Shown in pieces: positions 1,550 to 9,005 of a stretch of 21,063 bases of DNA. The position numbers and the translations under genes were made by a program. The number at the start of each line of letters is the position of its first letter. Within the stretch, counting starts at the first letter, position 1. The stretch covers positions 1-21,063 of the IMG/VR virus record IMGVR_UViG_3300033155_000948; one strand, written 5' to 3'. Origin of the DNA: a virus. The notes below the pieces were generated by a model. It was not told the origin of the DNA and searched no databases. It saw only the letters and a list, made by a program, of their open reading frames with translations.

Positions 1550-3022
1550 ATGACATACCCTATTTCGGCAGGTGTCTACCCAAGAGAGATTGATCAGAGC
1601 TTTATCGTACCAGCAGTTGCTAATAGCATCGGTGGTATTGTTGTTCATTCTGATAAAGGTAATACGGGTGAACTAAACCTTGTAACAAGTAACAAAGAAT
1701 TTTTGGATACTTATGGTGATCCATCACCAGACAATCCAAGCATGTATGCTGCTTTAGCGTTCTTAGAACGTGGTAAGCGTTTATTAGTAGCACGTGCAAT
1801 TAATGATGCAGTTAAATCAACTTTAACAGTAGATGATGTTCAGGGCACACCTGTATTGGCATTTACAGTTAATTCTAAAAATGAAGGTTCGTGGGGAAAT
1901 AGTTTAACAATTTCTACATCTGCGTCAGTATCTGACGTATTTACATTAACCGTTAAACTAAGTGGTACAACTGTAGAAGAATTTGAAGTAACACGTAACC
2001 CATTAGCTAAAAATGGTTTTGGTCAAAGTATCTTCATTGAAGATGTTGTTAACAAACAATCAATTTATGTTGATATCGTTGACAATGCTGCTAATCCTTA
2101 TACTGGTGCTGATGTAGAAACTATTACTGATTCTGCAATGACAGGTGCTAGTAATGACACTACTGCTCCTACTGATGGAATGATTAATACTGAATGGGAT
2201 CGTTTCGCAATTAAAGAAGAAGTTGAAGTTAGCTTATTAATCAATGGTGGTTGGGCAACTATCGCAGTTCATAACAAGATGATTACAATAGCTGAATCAC
2301 GTAAAGATTGTTTTGCAATTCTTGATTTTGCTGCTGCTGATAAAACTTCTGCTGACATGATAACTTATACCAGCAGCACTTTAAACGCAAACACTTCATA
2401 TGCTGCTATCTATGCAGGTTGGGTTTATGTTTATGATCAATACAATGACAAATATTTATATGCACCACCTTCAGGTTACATTGCTGGTGTATTTGCTAAT
2501 ACCGCAGCAGTAAGTGAAGTATGGTATGCACCAGCAGGTGTAAGACGTGGTGTGATGAACGTATTGGGTGTTGAAACAGTTTGGTCTGAAGGTGATAGAG
2601 ATTCGTTATATTCTGCGAAGATTAATCCTATTCAGAACTTCACTGGTGAAGGTATTCAAGTATATGGTCAAAAAACATTACAAACTGCTGCATCTGCATT
2701 AGATCGTGTAAACGTTCGTATGCTTATGATTACTATTGAAAAAGCACTTGAACGAGCTTTACGTCCATTTGTGTTTGAATTTAACGATACATTCACACGT
2801 GACAATATTGCTTCTATCATCAATTCATATATGGAAGACATCAAAGTAAGACGTGGTGTTTATGAATACTTAGCAGTTGTTGATGAAACTAACAACACAT
2901 CACAAGTAATCGACCAAAATAAATTGATTGTTGATTTATATGTGAAACCAACGCGAGTAGCTGAATTCATTCAAATGAATGCGATTATTACTGCAACTGG
3001 CGCAAGTTTTACAACGTCATAA
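1550..3022 (+). CDS. 18: Tail sheath protein (gp18-like)
   Basis: A 490-residue contractile tail sheath protein that would polymerise around the tail tube and contract on infection. The N-terminus (SAGVYPREID, then SIGGIVVHSDKG, EFLDTYGDPSPDNPS, ALAFLERGKRLLVARA) is the family signature. The C-terminal third, with RVNVRMLMITIEKALERALRPFVFEFND and DLYVKPTRVAEFIQMNAI, is the conserved domain that forms the handshake between subunits. It is shorter than T4 gp18 (659 residues), so the surface protrusion domains are smaller. The leader TTTAGGAGAAATACATAATG is nearly the same as that of the following tube gene. The next gene starts 18 bases after the stop. Confidence 0.93.
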   Translation: MTYPISAGVYPREIDQSFIVPAVANSIGGIVVHSDKGNTGELNLVTSNKEFLDTYGDPSPDNPSMYAALAFLERGKRLLVARAINDAVKSTLTVDDVQGTPVLAFTVNSKNEGSWGNSLTISTSASVSDVFTLTVKLSGTTVEEFEVTRNPLAKNGFGQSIFIEDVVNKQSIYVDIVDNAANPYTGADVETITDSAMTGASNDTTAPTDGMINTEWDRFAIKEEVEVSLLINGGWATIAVHNKMITIAESRKDCFAILDFAAADKTSADMITYTSSTLNANTSYAAIYAGWVYVYDQYNDKYLYAPPSGYIAGVFANTAAVSEVWYAPAGVRRGVMNVLGVETVWSEGDRDSLYSAKINPIQNFTGEGIQVYGQKTLQTAASALDRVNVRMLMITIEKALERALRPFVFEFNDTFTRDNIASIINSYMEDIKVRRGVYEYLAVVDETNNTSQVIDQNKLIVDLYVKPTRVAEFIQMNAIITATGASFTTS

Positions 3023-3040
3023 GATTAGGAGAAATATAAA

Positions 3041-3541
3041 ATGGCAAATATACAAGATATCCGCGCAATCAATACCCCACAAAAGTCGTATCAGTGGGAA
3101 GTTGATGTACAAGGTTTGTCTACTGGTGGTTTACAAGGATTGTCTTTCTATGCAAAGACAATCTCTATTCCACAAATAGCGGTAGAGCAAATCATCATCA
3201 ATTATAAAGGATTGAAAACTCACCATGCTGGACGTGATGCATCAGGTCATACTGTTACTATCTCTTTCTGGGATGATGAAGCACAAACTATTCACAAATT
3301 TTTCGATGATTGGATGAACTTAGTTCTCAATCAAGAAAACGGTGCTAGTGTGGGACGTGACATTTATTCTGCTGATTTGGTAATCCGTTTAATGGATTCA
3401 TCAGACGCAGAAACTACAAGTACAATTAAATTAACTAAAGTGTTTCCAACAGACATGGCAGAAATTGCTTTAAGTTATGATAGTTCTGAACCTGTAGAAC
3501 ATAGTATCACGTTATCATTCGATTCTAAGATTGTAGAATAA
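3041..3541 (+). CDS. 19: Major tail tube protein (gp19-like)
   Basis: A 166-residue protein of the T4 gp19 tail tube family, which stacks as hexamers to make the inner channel. Diagnostic stretches are YQWEVDVQGL, SFYAKTISIPQIAVEQ, INYKGLKTHHAGRD, TISFWDDEAQTIHKFFDDW and the closing SYDSSEPVEHSITLSFD. Length matches T4 gp19 (163 residues). It directly follows the sheath gene, as in T4, with its own TTAGGAG, and is followed by a strong intrinsic terminator, so sheath and tube form a discrete late unit. Confidence 0.92.
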   Translation: MANIQDIRAINTPQKSYQWEVDVQGLSTGGLQGLSFYAKTISIPQIAVEQIIINYKGLKTHHAGRDASGHTVTISFWDDEAQTIHKFFDDWMNLVLNQENGASVGRDIYSADLVIRLMDSSDAETTSTIKLTKVFPTDMAEIALSYDSSEPVEHSITLSFDSKIVE

Positions 3542-3593
3542 TAACAACACCCTTAACGTCACTCAGCGAAACGCACCATATAGGGTTACTTTG

Positions 3594-3618
3594 GGGAGCA
3601 GCAATGCTCCCTTTTTTT
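3594..3618 (+). terminator. Intrinsic terminator after the tube gene
   Basis: GGGAGCA and TGCTCCC form a perfect 7-bp stem closed by a GCAA (GNRA) tetraloop and followed by seven T. It lies about 50 bases after the tube stop and just before the next late promoter, so it separates the sheath-tube unit from the baseplate genes. Confidence 0.9.
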
Positions 3619-3621
3619 ATG

Positions 3622-3629
3622 GATAAATA
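3622..3629 (+). promoter_or_regulatory. Putative late promoter, leaderless, for the second tube gene
   Basis: GATAAATA begins four bases after the terminator's T-run and ends exactly six bases before the ATG at 3635, placing the expected +1 on the start codon. An in-frame reading upstream is stopped by TAA inside the motif, so the motif is not coding here. No Shine-Dalgarno sequence is visible. Confidence 0.6.
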
Positions 3630-3634
3630 AAGTT

Positions 3635-4201
3635 ATGGGATTTGATATAGATAACATTCGTGATAAAGCACACCAGCTACGCAATCTTAAAGATGCTGCT
3701 GGTAGTCTTTATTCAGGGGCAATTGAAGACTTTCTTCCTAAGAATCCACAAAAAACATATTTGTGGGATATAGACATAATTGGTGATAACACCAACATTA
3801 AAACATATGCTAAGTCAATAGTTATACCACAAGCAAGCATAGAACCTATTGTTGTTAACTATATGGGTGAACGAGTATTTTATGCTGGTAAGGAAACTTC
3901 GGCTAAAACAGTAGTCATTACATTTTGGGATGATGAACGTGGAACTATATTAAGATACCTTGAAAATTGGTTTACACAAGTTCATGAAAACGAAACAGGT
4001 CACATGTTAGCTGAAAGAGAATACAGACGAACAATTAAACTAATGTTAACTGACAGTACTGATTTATCTAATACTTCTATTACAGAGTTATCAGGTGCTT
4101 TTATTATAGACATTGCAGAAACACAATTATCATATGAGACTTCTGATGTTATTGAAATAACAGCAACGTTCCAATATGAATTAAAGGATATTTCAATATG
4201 A
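3635..4201 (+). CDS. Second tail-tube-fold protein (gp19 paralogue)
   Basis: A 188-residue protein whose residues from about 37 repeat the layout of the tube protein: KTYLWDIDI, TYAKSIVIPQASIEP, VNYMGERVFYAGKET, ITFWDDERGTILRYLENW and QLSYETSDVIEITATFQYE. The first 35 residues are an added, probably helical, N-terminal segment. It likely caps or initiates the tube at the baseplate or closes it at the head-proximal end, but sequence alone cannot say which. Its stop overlaps the start of the next gene (ATGA), implying translational coupling. A second copy of the major tube subunit is the alternative. Confidence 0.75.
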   Translation: MGFDIDNIRDKAHQLRNLKDAAGSLYSGAIEDFLPKNPQKTYLWDIDIIGDNTNIKTYAKSIVIPQASIEPIVVNYMGERVFYAGKETSAKTVVITFWDDERGTILRYLENWFTQVHENETGHMLAEREYRRTIKLMLTDSTDLSNTSITELSGAFIIDIAETQLSYETSDVIEITATFQYELKDISI

Positions 4202-4872
4202 CATATAACATAGCAGAGGTTATGTCACAGAAACGCAACGATTCGCCAATGCGTAGTTATTTGTGGAGAGTATTATTACCCGATCTTACCATTGGATTAC
4301 AAAATAATGGTGTGACGTATGGGGATGGTGTTAGTAATGCAAAAGATTTATTTTCTGGTGCTAACAAAATCAATCATGATTTGAGTACACGTATTGTAAA
4401 CATGTCTATACCGTTTAGTACAGTGGAAACTGACAAAGGTATAAAAGGTAATTCCTTTTGGTATTATGCAAAGAGTAATGATATTGGTAGCATAAATTTT
4501 GAAATGCATGAATATGAAGATGGATTAACATTAAAATATATTCAAGCATGGCAAAATCTTATGTTTAATAGTGATGGAACATATAATGCACCTTCTGTAT
4601 ATAAGAAAGATATCATGTTTTACCGATTGAGTTCTAATAAAGAAGATGTGGTAATCCACACATATAATGATTATTTTATAAGTGGTGTTGCTGATATTAG
4701 TAATGATTATGAAGGAAATGATATAGTCCGATATGCTGTTAGCTTAACGGGTGATTCAGTTGAACATCGGATAGTTGGATTGGATGATCTCAAAAACGTA
4801 GGTTCATTAGACAAAACATTAGATGATTTAGGGTCTATATTAAGTATTGGTAACATTGCTAACCTATTTTAA
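4198..4872 (+). CDS. Tube-fold baseplate protein, probably gp54-like tube initiator
   Basis: A 224-residue protein with a diverged tube-like core: SYLWRVLLPDL, a long insertion at about 40-60, TRIVNMSIPFSTVET, INFEMHEYEDGLTLKYIQAWQ, then DVVIHTYNDYFISGVADI and RYAVSLTGDSVEHRIVGLDD. T4 gp54, which starts the tube on the baseplate, has the same order (a KMPENRL strand, a residue-packed helix at a W, then a final beta pair) and a similar hydrophobic C-terminal tail. The end here (LDDLGSILSIGNIANLF) would suit such a tail. The start overlaps the previous stop by four bases, with AAGGA nine bases upstream. The gp54 assignment is by pattern only. Confidence 0.55.
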   Translation: MTYNIAEVMSQKRNDSPMRSYLWRVLLPDLTIGLQNNGVTYGDGVSNAKDLFSGANKINHDLSTRIVNMSIPFSTVETDKGIKGNSFWYYAKSNDIGSINFEMHEYEDGLTLKYIQAWQNLMFNSDGTYNAPSVYKKDIMFYRLSSNKEDVVIHTYNDYFISGVADISNDYEGNDIVRYAVSLTGDSVEHRIVGLDDLKNVGSLDKTLDDLGSILSIGNIANLF

Positions 4873-4876
4873 ACTT

Positions 4877-4884
4877 AATAAATA
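4877..4884 (+). promoter_or_regulatory. Putative late promoter for the gp26-like gene
   Basis: AATAAATA with expected start near 4890, giving a short 17-base leader that carries AAAAGGGGA before the ATG at 4907. Unlike the GATAAATA group, this one has a normal leader and ribosome-binding site. Confidence 0.5.
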
Positions 4885-4906
4885 ACAACATAAAAGGGGA
4901 AACAAT

Positions 4907-5749
4907 ATGTTTGAAGAAGACCAAGATGCAATTGATGATGATAAAGTAAAAAAACCATCAACAAAAAAGAAGAAAAAAGAAAAAGAAGAAGATTTATCAC
5001 TTAAGTATTATTCAACAAAATTACCTTCTAATGGTTTGTTGGGTTATTCAGAAGAAATTGAATACAGAGATATTCTGGTTCGTGATGAAAAAATATTATC
5101 TTCAGCAACCGCTAATACATTTCAACAAGTTATCAACAAAGTATTGAAATCATTATTAAAAGATGGTGACATTTTTGATGATTTATCATTACATGATCGT
5201 GATTACCTATTACTTTGGGTGTGGGCAAACAACTATACTACCATTAAAGAATTTGATGTAACTTGTCATGTTTGTTCTAATGTTGATCATATTTCTGTTG
5301 ATGTAACTAAAGTTGATATTTCTGAATTATCAGAAGAATATGAAAATCCCTTTGAATACGTATTAAATAATGATGATTCTGTATATCTAAAATTATTAAC
5401 TGTCAAAGATGAACAGATTGCCGAAGATTTCATGAAGAAAAATAAAGATCATAGTTTAGAATCTGTGATGTTAGCTTTATCCATTGATGTTGGTAAGGTT
5501 ATGATGTTACCACAAAAAATGAAATTTATAGAAGATAATATAAATGGTCATGATATGGGTATGATTCGTGGATTCCAAGAATATTTCAATTATGGTATTG
5601 ATGATAAGACTGAACATGTATGCGAATCGTGCGGCGAGGTCACGACTCACAATATACCCTTTTCTCTCGAATTCTTTATGCCAACCTTACGAAACGATTT
5701 TGCGAAAATGCTTCGAACTAACAAGCGGTCTAAACATAAGTCCAATTGA
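4907..5749 (+). CDS. gp26-like baseplate/tail-assembly protein with zinc finger
   Basis: A 280-residue protein. Residues 11-30 are a Lys/Asp/Glu-rich disordered start. The core (LPSNGLLGYSEEIEYRDILVRDEKIL, then DLSLHDRDYLLLWVWANNY) and two Cys pairs, C120/C123 and C239/C242, resemble the T4 gp26 family (T4_baseplate), which has the same CxxC next to a beta strand. The cysteines probably bind zinc. It lies between the tube genes and the tape measure gene, the usual place of tail-assembly chaperones. The zero-frame end (RTNKRSKHKSN) is Lys/Arg-rich and unlike the rest, and a +1-frame ORF overlaps it and continues beyond it. The ribosome-binding site is AAAAGGGGA. gp26 is my best match, but a functional chaperone analogue is possible. 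Confidence 0.55.
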   Translation: MFEEDQDAIDDDKVKKPSTKKKKKEKEEDLSLKYYSTKLPSNGLLGYSEEIEYRDILVRDEKILSSATANTFQQVINKVLKSLLKDGDIFDDLSLHDRDYLLLWVWANNYTTIKEFDVTCHVCSNVDHISVDVTKVDISELSEEYENPFEYVLNNDDSVYLKLLTVKDEQIAEDFMKKNKDHSLESVMLALSIDVGKVMMLPQKMKFIEDNINGHDMGMIRGFQEYFNYGIDDKTEHVCESCGEVTTHNIPFSLEFFMPTLRNDFAKMLRTNKRSKHKSN

Positions 5750-5843
5750 CATAGATCTTATGTCAGTTACGGAGGTAAGGTATTACCTTAAGTGGTTGAA
5801 TGAAAAAGTTAAACGTGAGAATGATGCTATTCGCAATTCTTAA
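5706..5843 (+). CDS. Probable +1 frameshift extension of the gp26-like protein
   Basis: The frame one base ahead of the gp26-like gene is open through its 3' end and stops at 5843. From about 5709 it reads as ordinary protein (CFELTSGLNISP, IDIDLMSVTEVRYYLKWLN, EKVKRENDAIRNS), while the zero frame degenerates to a basic tail. I see no start codon with a suitable ribosome-binding site; the ATG at 5760 would give only 27 residues. A +1 slip of the Lys codon in the AAAA run at 5705-5708 would join residue 267 to a 44-residue extension, 311 in total. The sheath-tube-chaperone-tape-measure order is where many phages use frameshifted chaperone pairs. A sequencing error or a broken gene would look similar. 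Confidence 0.45.
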   Translation, partial: KCFELTSGLNISPIDIDLMSVTEVRYYLKWLNEKVKRENDAIRNS

Positions 5844-5869
5844 TTTGTATAAATACTATATAAATTAAG
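5839..5869 (+). promoter_or_regulatory. Consensus late promoter inside a long hairpin
   Basis: TATAAATACTATA (5848-5860) is almost the complete T4 late consensus; expected start is near 5861. The region folds as a 13-bp stem (5839-5851 with 5857-5869, one G-U pair) and a five-base loop. A transcript from the promoter would keep only part of the 3' arm and have GAGGA at 5874-5878, six bases before the ATG at 5885. Read-through RNA would carry the full hairpin just ahead of that site. Confidence 0.65.
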
Positions 5870-5884
5870 GATTGAGGAAAGTAC

Positions 5885-6826
5885 ATGTTTAACCATCAAA
5901 ACGTAATAGAAGAAGCATTTGAATTATTATCAGGTAAAACAATTTTATCTGAGCAAGAAGATATTTTCAAAGGAAATGTTTACAAAGATAAGTCTAAATT
6001 ACCAAGTGGAAGATTAAAAAGAAACCTCTTTGATTTCAGAAAACATCTAACGGGTAACATTGACAGGTTACAACCTCTATTCATCATCGGTTATAATCTT
6101 GAAGAATCCCGTTTATTCTATGAAATTTGGTATCTTCCATTTGAAGGTCAATACATCATCGTTGATAAGTTTGGTAAACGTACTACTAAATTCCATAAGT
6201 ATGAAACAATCACACAAGCAGTTGATGAATTAGTTGATATCGTCAGTACTGTTGATATTGAAAATTTCGATGAAGACGATCTTGAAAAAGATATAGAACG
6301 AAATGCTGAACGTAATATCAAAAGCAGATATAAAACAACTTCCCGTACATTTGATCGTGATGAATGGGGTGATGATTCAAGATTTAAACGTTATGCTGAA
6401 TGTGAAACTCAAGAAGATATAGACACATTACTTGAACAAAACATCACATCACGTGGTTTACTTGCCGATATGATTAATTCTAATATCACTGAATACAGAG
6501 AAACCAGAATGAATCGTAACAAAATTAATTCAATATGGAAATTTTTACTTGGTCGTGATATCGAATACCCAACCAAATATCTTGGTGGTGGACTAAAGGG
6601 TGTTGTGCTTAAATTAATTGGCAGAGAAAAAGAAGCATCATTTGTTGTTGGTTACTCATTAGGTGGAAAACTTGATTTCGAAATTTGGTTTGTTAAGTCT
6701 GTGACCAAGGGTAAAGGTAGTTTCTATGTATTTGATATTACTGCTGCAAAAGTTTTGGCAAAAGATTTACCTAATATGCGTCAAGCATATGCTTACATAG
6801 CAAACAAAATTACAACTAAGGTTTAA
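5885..6826 (+). CDS. Unknown protein with an internal duplication
   Basis: A 313-residue protein I do not recognise. It contains two copies of one domain: residues 67-118 (FIIGYNLEESRLFYEIWYLP, then a YIIVD strand and a helix TITQAVDELVDIV) and 253-307 (FVVGYSLGGKLDFEIWFVK, a FYVFD strand and a helix NMRQAYAYIANKI). Both have GY-x(n)-FEIW followed by a strand and helix. Between them lies an acidic-to-basic linker (about 120-165) and a helical stretch. There is no membrane segment. It is driven by the best late promoter in the window and ends four bases before the tape measure gene, so it is probably a tail-assembly or baseplate protein made late. Confidence 0.65.
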   Translation: MFNHQNVIEEAFELLSGKTILSEQEDIFKGNVYKDKSKLPSGRLKRNLFDFRKHLTGNIDRLQPLFIIGYNLEESRLFYEIWYLPFEGQYIIVDKFGKRTTKFHKYETITQAVDELVDIVSTVDIENFDEDDLEKDIERNAERNIKSRYKTTSRTFDRDEWGDDSRFKRYAECETQEDIDTLLEQNITSRGLLADMINSNITEYRETRMNRNKINSIWKFLLGRDIEYPTKYLGGGLKGVVLKLIGREKEASFVVGYSLGGKLDFEIWFVKSVTKGKGSFYVFDITAAKVLAKDLPNMRQAYAYIANKITTKV

Positions 6827-6830
6827 TTAA

Positions 6831-9005
6831 ATGCCTATAGACGATAATGTAAATCAACAAAATCTTCAGGACTTCATTAATGAACTTGAAAAGATCAGAT
6901 TTGATATACGTAAAAATGCTGTCCTCAATAAGTCAAGTGATAAGTATGTCCGTAATCTTGAAAAATTAATCAAGACATCAAAAGGTATTGTTAGTGGTAC
7001 TGGCAGTAAAGGTGATACTAAAAAGTTTGAAAAATTAGTTCGTGATACCGATATGTCATTACGCATGTTGCGTAAGAAAAATCGCGGTGATGAAAAATTC
7101 CAACAAGAATTTACTAATGTGTTTGGTGATATAAAAGAATCACAAGATGCATCTGTCAGCGTGTTTAAAAAGATTAATGTGTCATTGAAACAAATGACAA
7201 GTTCCATTGCTATTATATCAGATGCATCAGCTAAAGATGTTGAGGATACCGGATTAAGTTTTCTTACAGGCGCGTTCGGCCAGATAGCAAAAGAAACAGT
7301 TGGTGTTGATAAGTTAACGGATATACCATCAATAACAAAGGGTAAGTTTAGTGGATTGTTTGGTAAAGATGTTGAAGGGCAAGCACATGATGGAATGACC
7401 AACATACCAAATGAAGGTACTTATAACCTTGATGAAGGTGAGCGTGTCATTGCACCACAACAGAATAAAGATTTAAGTTCATTCTTATCTAGTCCTGAAG
7501 CTGGTGGTGGAGTATCGTCAACATTCTTAAAAAACATTGAAGAAAATACAGAGATACTTTCTAATGATAAACCATTAGAAGTATTCAACAAAGATCATAA
7601 CCCAACTTATTTTGATGCTATCATAGATAATGATGACAGACTTAACATTGAACGTGAAAATTTAGAAAATAAACATCATAAAGAAATCAGAACCAAGTTT
7701 GAAATTCTTGGTGATATTATGTCAGCAGTAGCTGGTAGTTGGTTAGCGAATTTTGTTTTGGGTATTAGTATTTGGTCTAAACGTTTTGCAAGACATCCTA
7801 TCTTAATGACAATAGGTGTATTAGTTCAGGGTATAAGTGGTTTAGTAAAAGGGTTTGCTGGATTTACTGGTATATCAGCACTTCTTGGTGGTATTGGAAA
7901 ATTTCTTTTTGGTACTGAAGCTAAAAAAGATACTGATAGAATTGTTCAGGCCAACGAAGATATTATTGATGCTGTACGTGGTGAAGCACAAAAAGACCGC
8001 AGAGGAATAATTAAAAAAGCTAAAGATGCTCTTAAAACTGGAACAATTAATTTAGGTAAAGCTGCTCTTGGTGGTCTTGGTGGAATGCTTACTAAGGGGT
8101 TTGCTGCTGCTAATAAAAAGTTACCACAAAAACGTGACTCTAAAGGTCGATTTGCAAAACGTGATAAAACAGACATTCTTATTGATAGCATCAAAGAGGT
8201 GTCTAAAGGTATCTGGGCAATATTTGAAATTAATGATGAAACACTTGAAGAAACCAAAAAGGGTAAAGGTAAAGGTGGTGGATTATTAGCTAGTCTTATG
8301 GGTGGCAAGGGTATACTTGGTAAAATATTAACTGGTGGTAAATCATTCGCAAGATTTGGTGGAACTTTAGTTAAGAGTATTGGTATAGGATTATTAGTAG
8401 GACTCAAAACATTTGGACTGAAAATATTCTCAGTCATTGGTACAAAAATGTTTGGTATGTTAGGACTTGCATTAACTGGTGGTGGATTGATTGGTACGTA
8501 TTTATTAAATCCATTACTGAAATGGTTTGATGATACTTTTGGTACTGGTATTATCAGTATGATTGGTGGACTAATGGTGAAGATTGTTGCGGGTTTAGAA
8601 AGTTTACCTTTGATTGGTGGACTTATTCAAAAAATTACGGGTGGCGAAGCGTCTGCTGCTATCGCAAGTAATCAAAAGAATGCATCATTAGATGCTGAAA
8701 CTGCTGGATATCAAAACGTGGCAGCACGTGTTAAATCTGGTGAACTCCAAAAAGGTTCTACTGAGGTTTTAGGATTATTGGATAAAGTTAAATCCGGTGA
8801 TTATGAAATTAAACCAGTACAAGCAGTTGACAAAACACAGATAACTTCACAAGTAATAGAACAAAAAATTAGTGAAGCAGCAACATATATGAAACAACAA
8901 GCACAAGCGGTTTCTAATACTGTGGTAAATAATACACAACAAATAGTTAAATCATTACCCGCAGTAGATGATTTAGGTACAGCATTAGCGAGTTATGGTG
9001 GATAA
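6831..9005 (+). CDS. Tape measure protein (gp29 role)
   Basis: A 724-residue protein with tape-measure features. The N-terminus is charged and helical (about 1-135). A typical tape-measure signature, HDGMTNIPNEGTYNLDEGERVI, lies at about 186-207. Two large Gly-rich hydrophobic regions follow (about 291-361 and 493-603), which in this family help the tape cross the host membrane. The end is Gln/Ser/Ala-rich. By the usual 0.15 nm per residue it would set a tail of roughly 105-110 nm (inference). T4 gp29 has 590 residues and does the same job. It starts four bases after the previous stop and is followed two bases later by a gp48-like gene, the T4 order 29-48. Confidence 0.8.
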   Translation: MPIDDNVNQQNLQDFINELEKIRFDIRKNAVLNKSSDKYVRNLEKLIKTSKGIVSGTGSKGDTKKFEKLVRDTDMSLRMLRKKNRGDEKFQQEFTNVFGDIKESQDASVSVFKKINVSLKQMTSSIAIISDASAKDVEDTGLSFLTGAFGQIAKETVGVDKLTDIPSITKGKFSGLFGKDVEGQAHDGMTNIPNEGTYNLDEGERVIAPQQNKDLSSFLSSPEAGGGVSSTFLKNIEENTEILSNDKPLEVFNKDHNPTYFDAIIDNDDRLNIERENLENKHHKEIRTKFEILGDIMSAVAGSWLANFVLGISIWSKRFARHPILMTIGVLVQGISGLVKGFAGFTGISALLGGIGKFLFGTEAKKDTDRIVQANEDIIDAVRGEAQKDRRGIIKKAKDALKTGTINLGKAALGGLGGMLTKGFAAANKKLPQKRDSKGRFAKRDKTDILIDSIKEVSKGIWAIFEINDETLEETKKGKGKGGGLLASLMGGKGILGKILTGGKSFARFGGTLVKSIGIGLLVGLKTFGLKIFSVIGTKMFGMLGLALTGGGLIGTYLLNPLLKWFDDTFGTGIISMIGGLMVKIVAGLESLPLIGGLIQKITGGEASAAIASNQKNASLDAETAGYQNVAARVKSGELQKGSTEVLGLLDKVKSGDYEIKPVQAVDKTQITSQVIEQKISEAATYMKQQAQAVSNTVVNNTQQIVKSLPAVDDLGTALASYGG

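Follow-up and report, generated by a model that had tools for sequence, protein, structure and literature searches.

A putative tail assembly chaperone gene of a contractile-tailed phage with a conserved +1 tail, probably reached by programmed frameshifting

The DNA analyzed here (the window, 21,063 nucleotides of the viral record IMGVR_UViG_3300033155_000948) carries a gp26-like open reading frame (ORF) that is overlapped at its end by a tail in the +1 frame (Table 1). The zero frame closes with the residues FAKMLRTNKRSKHKSN, whereas no stop interrupts the +1 frame between about position 5565 and a TAA at 5841-5843. Joining the zero frame to the +1 tail gives a fusion of 311 aa, as the initial annotation of this sequence had proposed and as translation confirms. 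Upstream of this gene lie a sheath gene and then three tube-like genes; downstream, one gene for a 313-aa protein separates it from the gene for the tape measure protein.

The three tube-like genes are arranged in tandem (3041-3541, 3635-4201 and 4198-4872, within 3041-4872 of the window), and all of them match phrog_45, tail tube. A homologue of the 313-aa protein also follows the chaperone gene in the relative L003.

Table 1. Features of the chaperone locus in window coordinates, and shift sites in the window and its relatives (skipped base in brackets)
Feature	Position	Strand	Remarks
TAC-N, zero-frame gp26-like ORF	4907..5749	+	280 aa; stop TGA 5747-5749
Unchanged block, 20 codons	5654..5713	+	Identical in window and L003; half of the gene's codons differ
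AAAA run	5705..5708	+	Not conserved; GAA at the matching place in L001, L028, L030, L033, L036
Most likely +1 shift site, CUU-[C]GA	5711..5716	+	Leu codon in P site, base 5714 skipped, CGA in A site
TAC-C, +1 tail	5715..5843	+	42 residues, ELTSGLNISPIDIDLMSVTEVRYYLKWLNEKVKRENDAIRNS
Gene for 313-aa protein, between chaperone and tape measure genes	5885..6826	+	No Pfam match; no PHROG match beyond chance
Tape measure protein gene	6831..9005	+	phrog_13674, tail length tape measure, E 8e-13; phrog_2854, E 1e-8
Site CTT[C]GA			Window, L003, L023
Site TTA[C]GA			L024, L001
Site CTA[T]GA			L028, L030, L033, L036
Site TTA[C]AA			L032
Site CTA[T]CT			L029
Site CTA[T]TT			L006
Earlier site GAA[T]AA / AAA[T]GA			L025 / L027; zero frame stops three codons earlier

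The product of 4907-5749 matches the Pfam family PF12322, T4_baseplate (E 1.4e-16, 61.3 bits against a cut-off of 24.5), and phrog_150, baseplate hub (E 1.6e-19). Both gp26 and gp51 of phage T4 match PF12322 and are homologous to each other, gp51 consisting of a gp26-like part and about 45 additional C-terminal residues. The family match and the tape measure gene downstream agree with the tail-chaperone identity put forward in the initial annotation. In SP-15, immuto, LIS04 and P1, the chaperone gene either adjoins the tape measure gene or is separated from it only by the tail ORF.

An AlphaFold model of the fusion had a mean pLDDT of 77 (near 90 in the body, 50-75 in the tail), its folding alignment holding only one relative's tail as a row. 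Helices are predicted at residues 279-283 and 287-310 of the fusion, within the +1 tail. The best viral structural match of the model was the gp26-like protein of SP-15, and the model of a close homologue of T4 gp51 showed the same order of C-terminal elements (ribbon, short helix, helix, short helix, long helix). A Foldseek comparison of the fusion model with the PDB gave no significant match, and a sequence search of the PDB gave no match. The best two of 902 re-aligned PDB chains were both phage tail assembly chaperones, YqbN (3klu, entry title protein yqbN, Z 5.5) and that of HK97 (2ob9, Z 5.1), at low Z values that unrelated folds also reach. When the window-clade tail alone was compared with the gp51 tail of T4 as profiles, the probability was 0.2%.

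Scans of IMG/VR and of phage genomes yielded 13 relatives that were kept (33-78% identity, with sequence running past the gene end); comparisons of 14 sequences refer to these and the window. One relative, L001, comes from a cultured Alishewanella phage, and a near-identical second Alishewanella phage shares the arrangement; a search of genome_contigs with the Alishewanella protein found no relative. In the comparison that the initial annotation had suggested for its proposed +1 programmed frameshift, all 13 relatives keep the overlap, the zero frame stopping at nearly the same place and the +1 frame being open past that stop.

The contig being metagenomic and having an A-run nearby, one might suspect a sequencing or assembly indel in a formerly continuous gene, an error that the initial annotation itself had named as grounds for rejecting its reading. 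However, a separately assembled contig (L002) equals positions 2706-7645 of the window with a single difference, at 5359, and since it has the same sequence at the A-run, an assembly indel there is excluded. The same structure moreover recurs in L003/L004 and in 12 other relatives, some of them isolate genomes, and none of the sampled relatives has one continuous frame, so that the chance of such an artifact is negligible. From position 7646 onward, inside the tape measure gene, L002 diverges sharply from the window in an ungapped comparison; a recombination point, an allele exchange or an indel are possible causes.

For the greater part of their length the +1 tails give a gap-free alignment, with the consensus [DE]LTK.L.ISP.D..M... 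in the relatives and with a Leu, a Pro and a Met that are invariant among the 13. In the 38 codons after the shift, none of the 14 sequences has a stop in the +1 frame, whereas stops number 1-7 in the zero frame and 0-9 in the third. The mean pairwise BLOSUM62 score was 67.3 for the +1 tails, as against 21.0 and 20.8 for the other two frames and 19.4 (sd 0.5) for shuffled residues; by this score, the +1 tail is conserved above chance. Past the zero-frame stop, the window and L003 (78% identity) differ at 4, 0 and 10 sites in the three codon positions of the +1 frame. This corresponds to 9 synonymous and 3 nonsynonymous codon changes in the +1 frame, compared with 0-1 synonymous and 10-11 nonsynonymous changes in the others, a synonymous bias thus being seen in the +1 frame only. 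On this comparative evidence, we show here that the +1 tail is under selection.

The odd basic end of the zero frame (RTNKRSKHKSN), to which the initial annotation drew attention, is indeed present up to 5749, but judging from the alignment it is read-through beyond the shift site and not conserved protein. The functional part of TAC-N probably ends near residue 269.

Could the +1 tail be a separate small gene, translated from an internal or coupled start in the overlap and never fused? A GTG at 5568 begins a 91-aa ORF in the +1 frame, and GenBank lists the tail as such a small ORF in SP-15, Mel-JY01, immuto and KVP40. Yet no Shine-Dalgarno-like sequence precedes any of the +1 starts in the overlap of the window, and no start from which the tail could begin is conserved in position among the relatives, which bears out the earlier remark that the +1 frame lacks a credible start of its own. 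Furthermore, the conserved +1 residues directly follow the last conserved zero-frame residue, and T4 gp51 carries body and tail in one frame. We therefore consider an independent gene very unlikely.

Because a slip anywhere in the overlap yields a product of the same length, the shift had to be placed by residues. In the 14 sequences, conservation of the zero frame (block DF...L) extends to the Leu codon CUU at 5711-5713, and a +1 block ([DE]LTK) starts directly after it. CUU-[C]GA is consequently the better site, and from this juxtaposition we infer the exact position of the slip. The initial annotation had instead placed the slip on the AAAA run, where the re-pairing of AAA with AAA in the +1 frame would be perfect and the product equally long, with two residues different (CF instead of ML). 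This site is unlikely, though, given that the AAA codon is not conserved (five relatives have GAA) and that the conserved zero-frame residues go on to the Leu codon. As for transcriptional slippage altering the mRNA by one base, the sequence is AT-rich and contains this short A-run; but the run is of only four A, it is not conserved, and the CTA[T]GA and TTA[C]GA sites of the relatives contain no homopolymer, making this explanation extremely improbable.

At the CUU-[C]GA site and its counterparts, every one of the 14 sequences would skip a pyrimidine (C or U). The slip does not always fall at the same place, since L025 and L027 need an earlier one (Table 1). CGA is rare in the phage itself, with a usage in the window of 2.9 per 1000 codons, compared with 43 for UUA and 16 for AGA; AGA, although its frequency is five to six times that of CGA, never occurs at the shift site in the window clade. 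Part of the site pattern is attributable to the need for Asp or Glu in the +1 frame, for which any NGA would serve. On the basis of these sites, the event looks like a pause at a rare codon or a stop codon with a slip on the Leu tRNA, as in the release factor RF2 (CUU UGA). The re-pairing of the CUU tRNA with UUC is no better than in RF2.

Some features of the flanking sequence might contribute. The GC content is 42% in 5600-5720 and 28% in the gene body, and an uninterrupted run of 20 unchanged codons between the window and L003 has a permutation P of 5e-5. This suggests a candidate cis signal upstream of the shift, within 5654-5713. The RNA upstream of the site folds no better than shuffles. 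All 60 bases of 5654-5713 are identical in the window and L003, a degree of identity that constraint on the protein does not seem to explain by itself. A Shine-Dalgarno-like stimulator before the site is absent in the window (0.1 kcal/mol), and a strong one was found in L001 only (-6.2). For the 87 nt 3' of the site, the predicted fold is slightly more stable than those of shuffled sequences (z -2.3). A downstream RNA hairpin is not claimed as a signal, the first hairpin not being kept, by eye, in L003.

Our preferred reading, to which we assign a probability of roughly 0.88, is that the gene at 4907-5843 encodes a tail assembly chaperone of a contractile-tailed phage, made as TAC-N and as a +1-shifted form, TAC-NC. 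Most ribosomes would end at 5749 and produce the short form of 280 aa, while some would pause at the Leu codon CUU before the rare CGA (5714), pass over its C and continue in the +1 frame as far as 5843, thereby producing a 311-aa TAC-NC with a helical tail of 42 residues. By analogy with gpG/gpGT of phage lambda, the short form, present in many copies, would cover the tape measure protein, and the long form, present in few, would deliver tube subunits to that protein. The comparative evidence for a programmed +1 frameshift is strong. The conserved architecture, the family membership and the position before the tape measure gene are what we show here, by sequence comparison; the efficiency of the shift and the binding to the tape measure protein are presumed, and we infer how the slip works and what the tail does.

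The chaperone reading is supported by a related gene of phage P1, pmgB (L132:44492-45373, minus strand), since its deletion prevents complete tails and leads to aberrant polytubes (PMC9024508). This gene has a conserved +1 tail, GIPIQDAERLTESYAFFLLEKLEEKLKPKR, which runs toward the tape measure gene sit. The tail is kept in Punavirus relatives (71-74% identity), in Cronobacter phage JK004 and in phage D6 (39%) (L189-L193, L201, L202). The family link is weak: the PmgB family, phrog_1854, matches the Alishewanella member L001 (E 3.4e-6), and the connection of PmgB to the window family through phrog_150 is weak as well (E 0.024). A +1 frameshift is thus predicted in P1 pmgB, an essential gene without an assigned product function. 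In a P1-like contig, L187, the zero frame extends through to the tail region and encodes 312 aa; this continuous frame probably reflects an indel before the stop, either natural or an error.

A +1 tail was also observed in distant PF12322 members, namely those of Streptococcus phage GXN1, Bacillus phage SP-15 and Listeria phage LIS04, as well as Microcystis phage Mel-JY01, Flavobacterium phage immuto and LR756508. The candidate sites are CCC[C]GA in GXN1, GCC[C]GA in SP-15 and ACC[C]GA in LIS04, and lie near CCU in Mel-JY01, immuto and LR756508; all of these are less certain than in the window clade. In cyanophage and KVP40-like loci (L016, L017, L039-L120), the tail is in the -1 frame, directly after U UUU UUC, in 84 of 84 cases. 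This heptamer immediately precedes the stop of gp26, and the gp51-like tail mostly lacks an ATG of its own. The -1 tail is open over its full length in 83 of the 84 loci, being short in L093, where a stop or the contig end terminates it. A common family, phrog_634, links the cyanophage tail with gp51 (E 1e-29), and the annotation of KVP40 already likens the small ORF to the end of T4 gp51. In T4 itself, the short and long forms are separate, divergent genes on opposite strands.

These distributions lead us to favor, with some reserve, the view that the direction of chaperone frameshifting has switched between contractile-tail lineages of the T4/P1 type: +1 in the window clade, SP-15-like phages, GXN1, Flavobacterium phage immuto, Microcystis phages and pmgB of P1 and D6, whereas cyanophages and KVP40 shift -1 at U UUU UUC and T4 has two genes instead. 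The site used in the window clade would be of an RF2-like Leu-[Y]GA type, at which a rare sense codon and the UGA stop are interchangeable. A two-form chaperone would then be kept by selection while the route of its production changes (+1, -1 or two genes), and the window clade would provide a set of natural +1 shift sites that carry sometimes a rare codon and sometimes a stop codon. In practical terms, many genomes wrongly annotate the tail as a tiny separate gene, or omit it.

Frameshifted tail chaperones have been described before. A 2016 review regarded the G-T frameshift as general "except T4", with a -1 shift in lambda gpG/gpGT and very likely a +1 shift in a tail gene of the halovirus HSTV-2 (PMC5009743). 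The chaperones of T4-like phages were identified by Vladimirov, Gautam & Davidson 2022, as related in PMC10885494 and PMC12846349; according to passages of these papers, TAC-N genes of T4-like phages carry poly-T -1 signals (PMC12846349) and some T4-like phages carry separate short and long chaperone genes (PMC10885494). The opinion in the initial annotation that gp26 homologues are not generally described as frameshifted is hence at odds with these passages, which name frameshifting in some T4-like groups. A two-form, frameshifted T4-like chaperone is, going by these papers, a known kind and not wholly new; the shifts reported in the T4/P1-type gene family are mostly -1. For the +1 form in the window clade, SP-15-like phages, P1 pmgB and D6, we found no description in the open-access literature.

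With the T4-like gp26/gp51 system, the window clade shares PF12322, the short-plus-long design and, in the frameshifted groups, the place before the tape measure gene; it differs in that its shift is +1, on a Leu codon followed by CGA, UGA or some other codon, whereas cyanophages and KVP40 shift -1 at U UUU UUC. Lambda gpG/gpGT is similar in having a short and a frameshift-extended chaperone encoded upstream of the tape measure gene, but lambda shifts -1 and the window +1, the two being compared here by design. HSTV-2 likewise has a myovirus chaperone, very likely with a +1 shift; it is an archaeal virus, likened here by shift direction. The RF2 (prfB) site, CUU UGA C, also combines CUU in the P site with a +1 slip, and CUA UGA occurs in L028, L030, L033 and L036; the A-site codon of the window is CGA, however, not UGA, and the window has no internal Shine-Dalgarno sequence. 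Finally, P1 PmgB resembles the window chaperone in its conserved +1 tail and in its position upstream of the tape measure gene sit, although only a weak family link connects the two.
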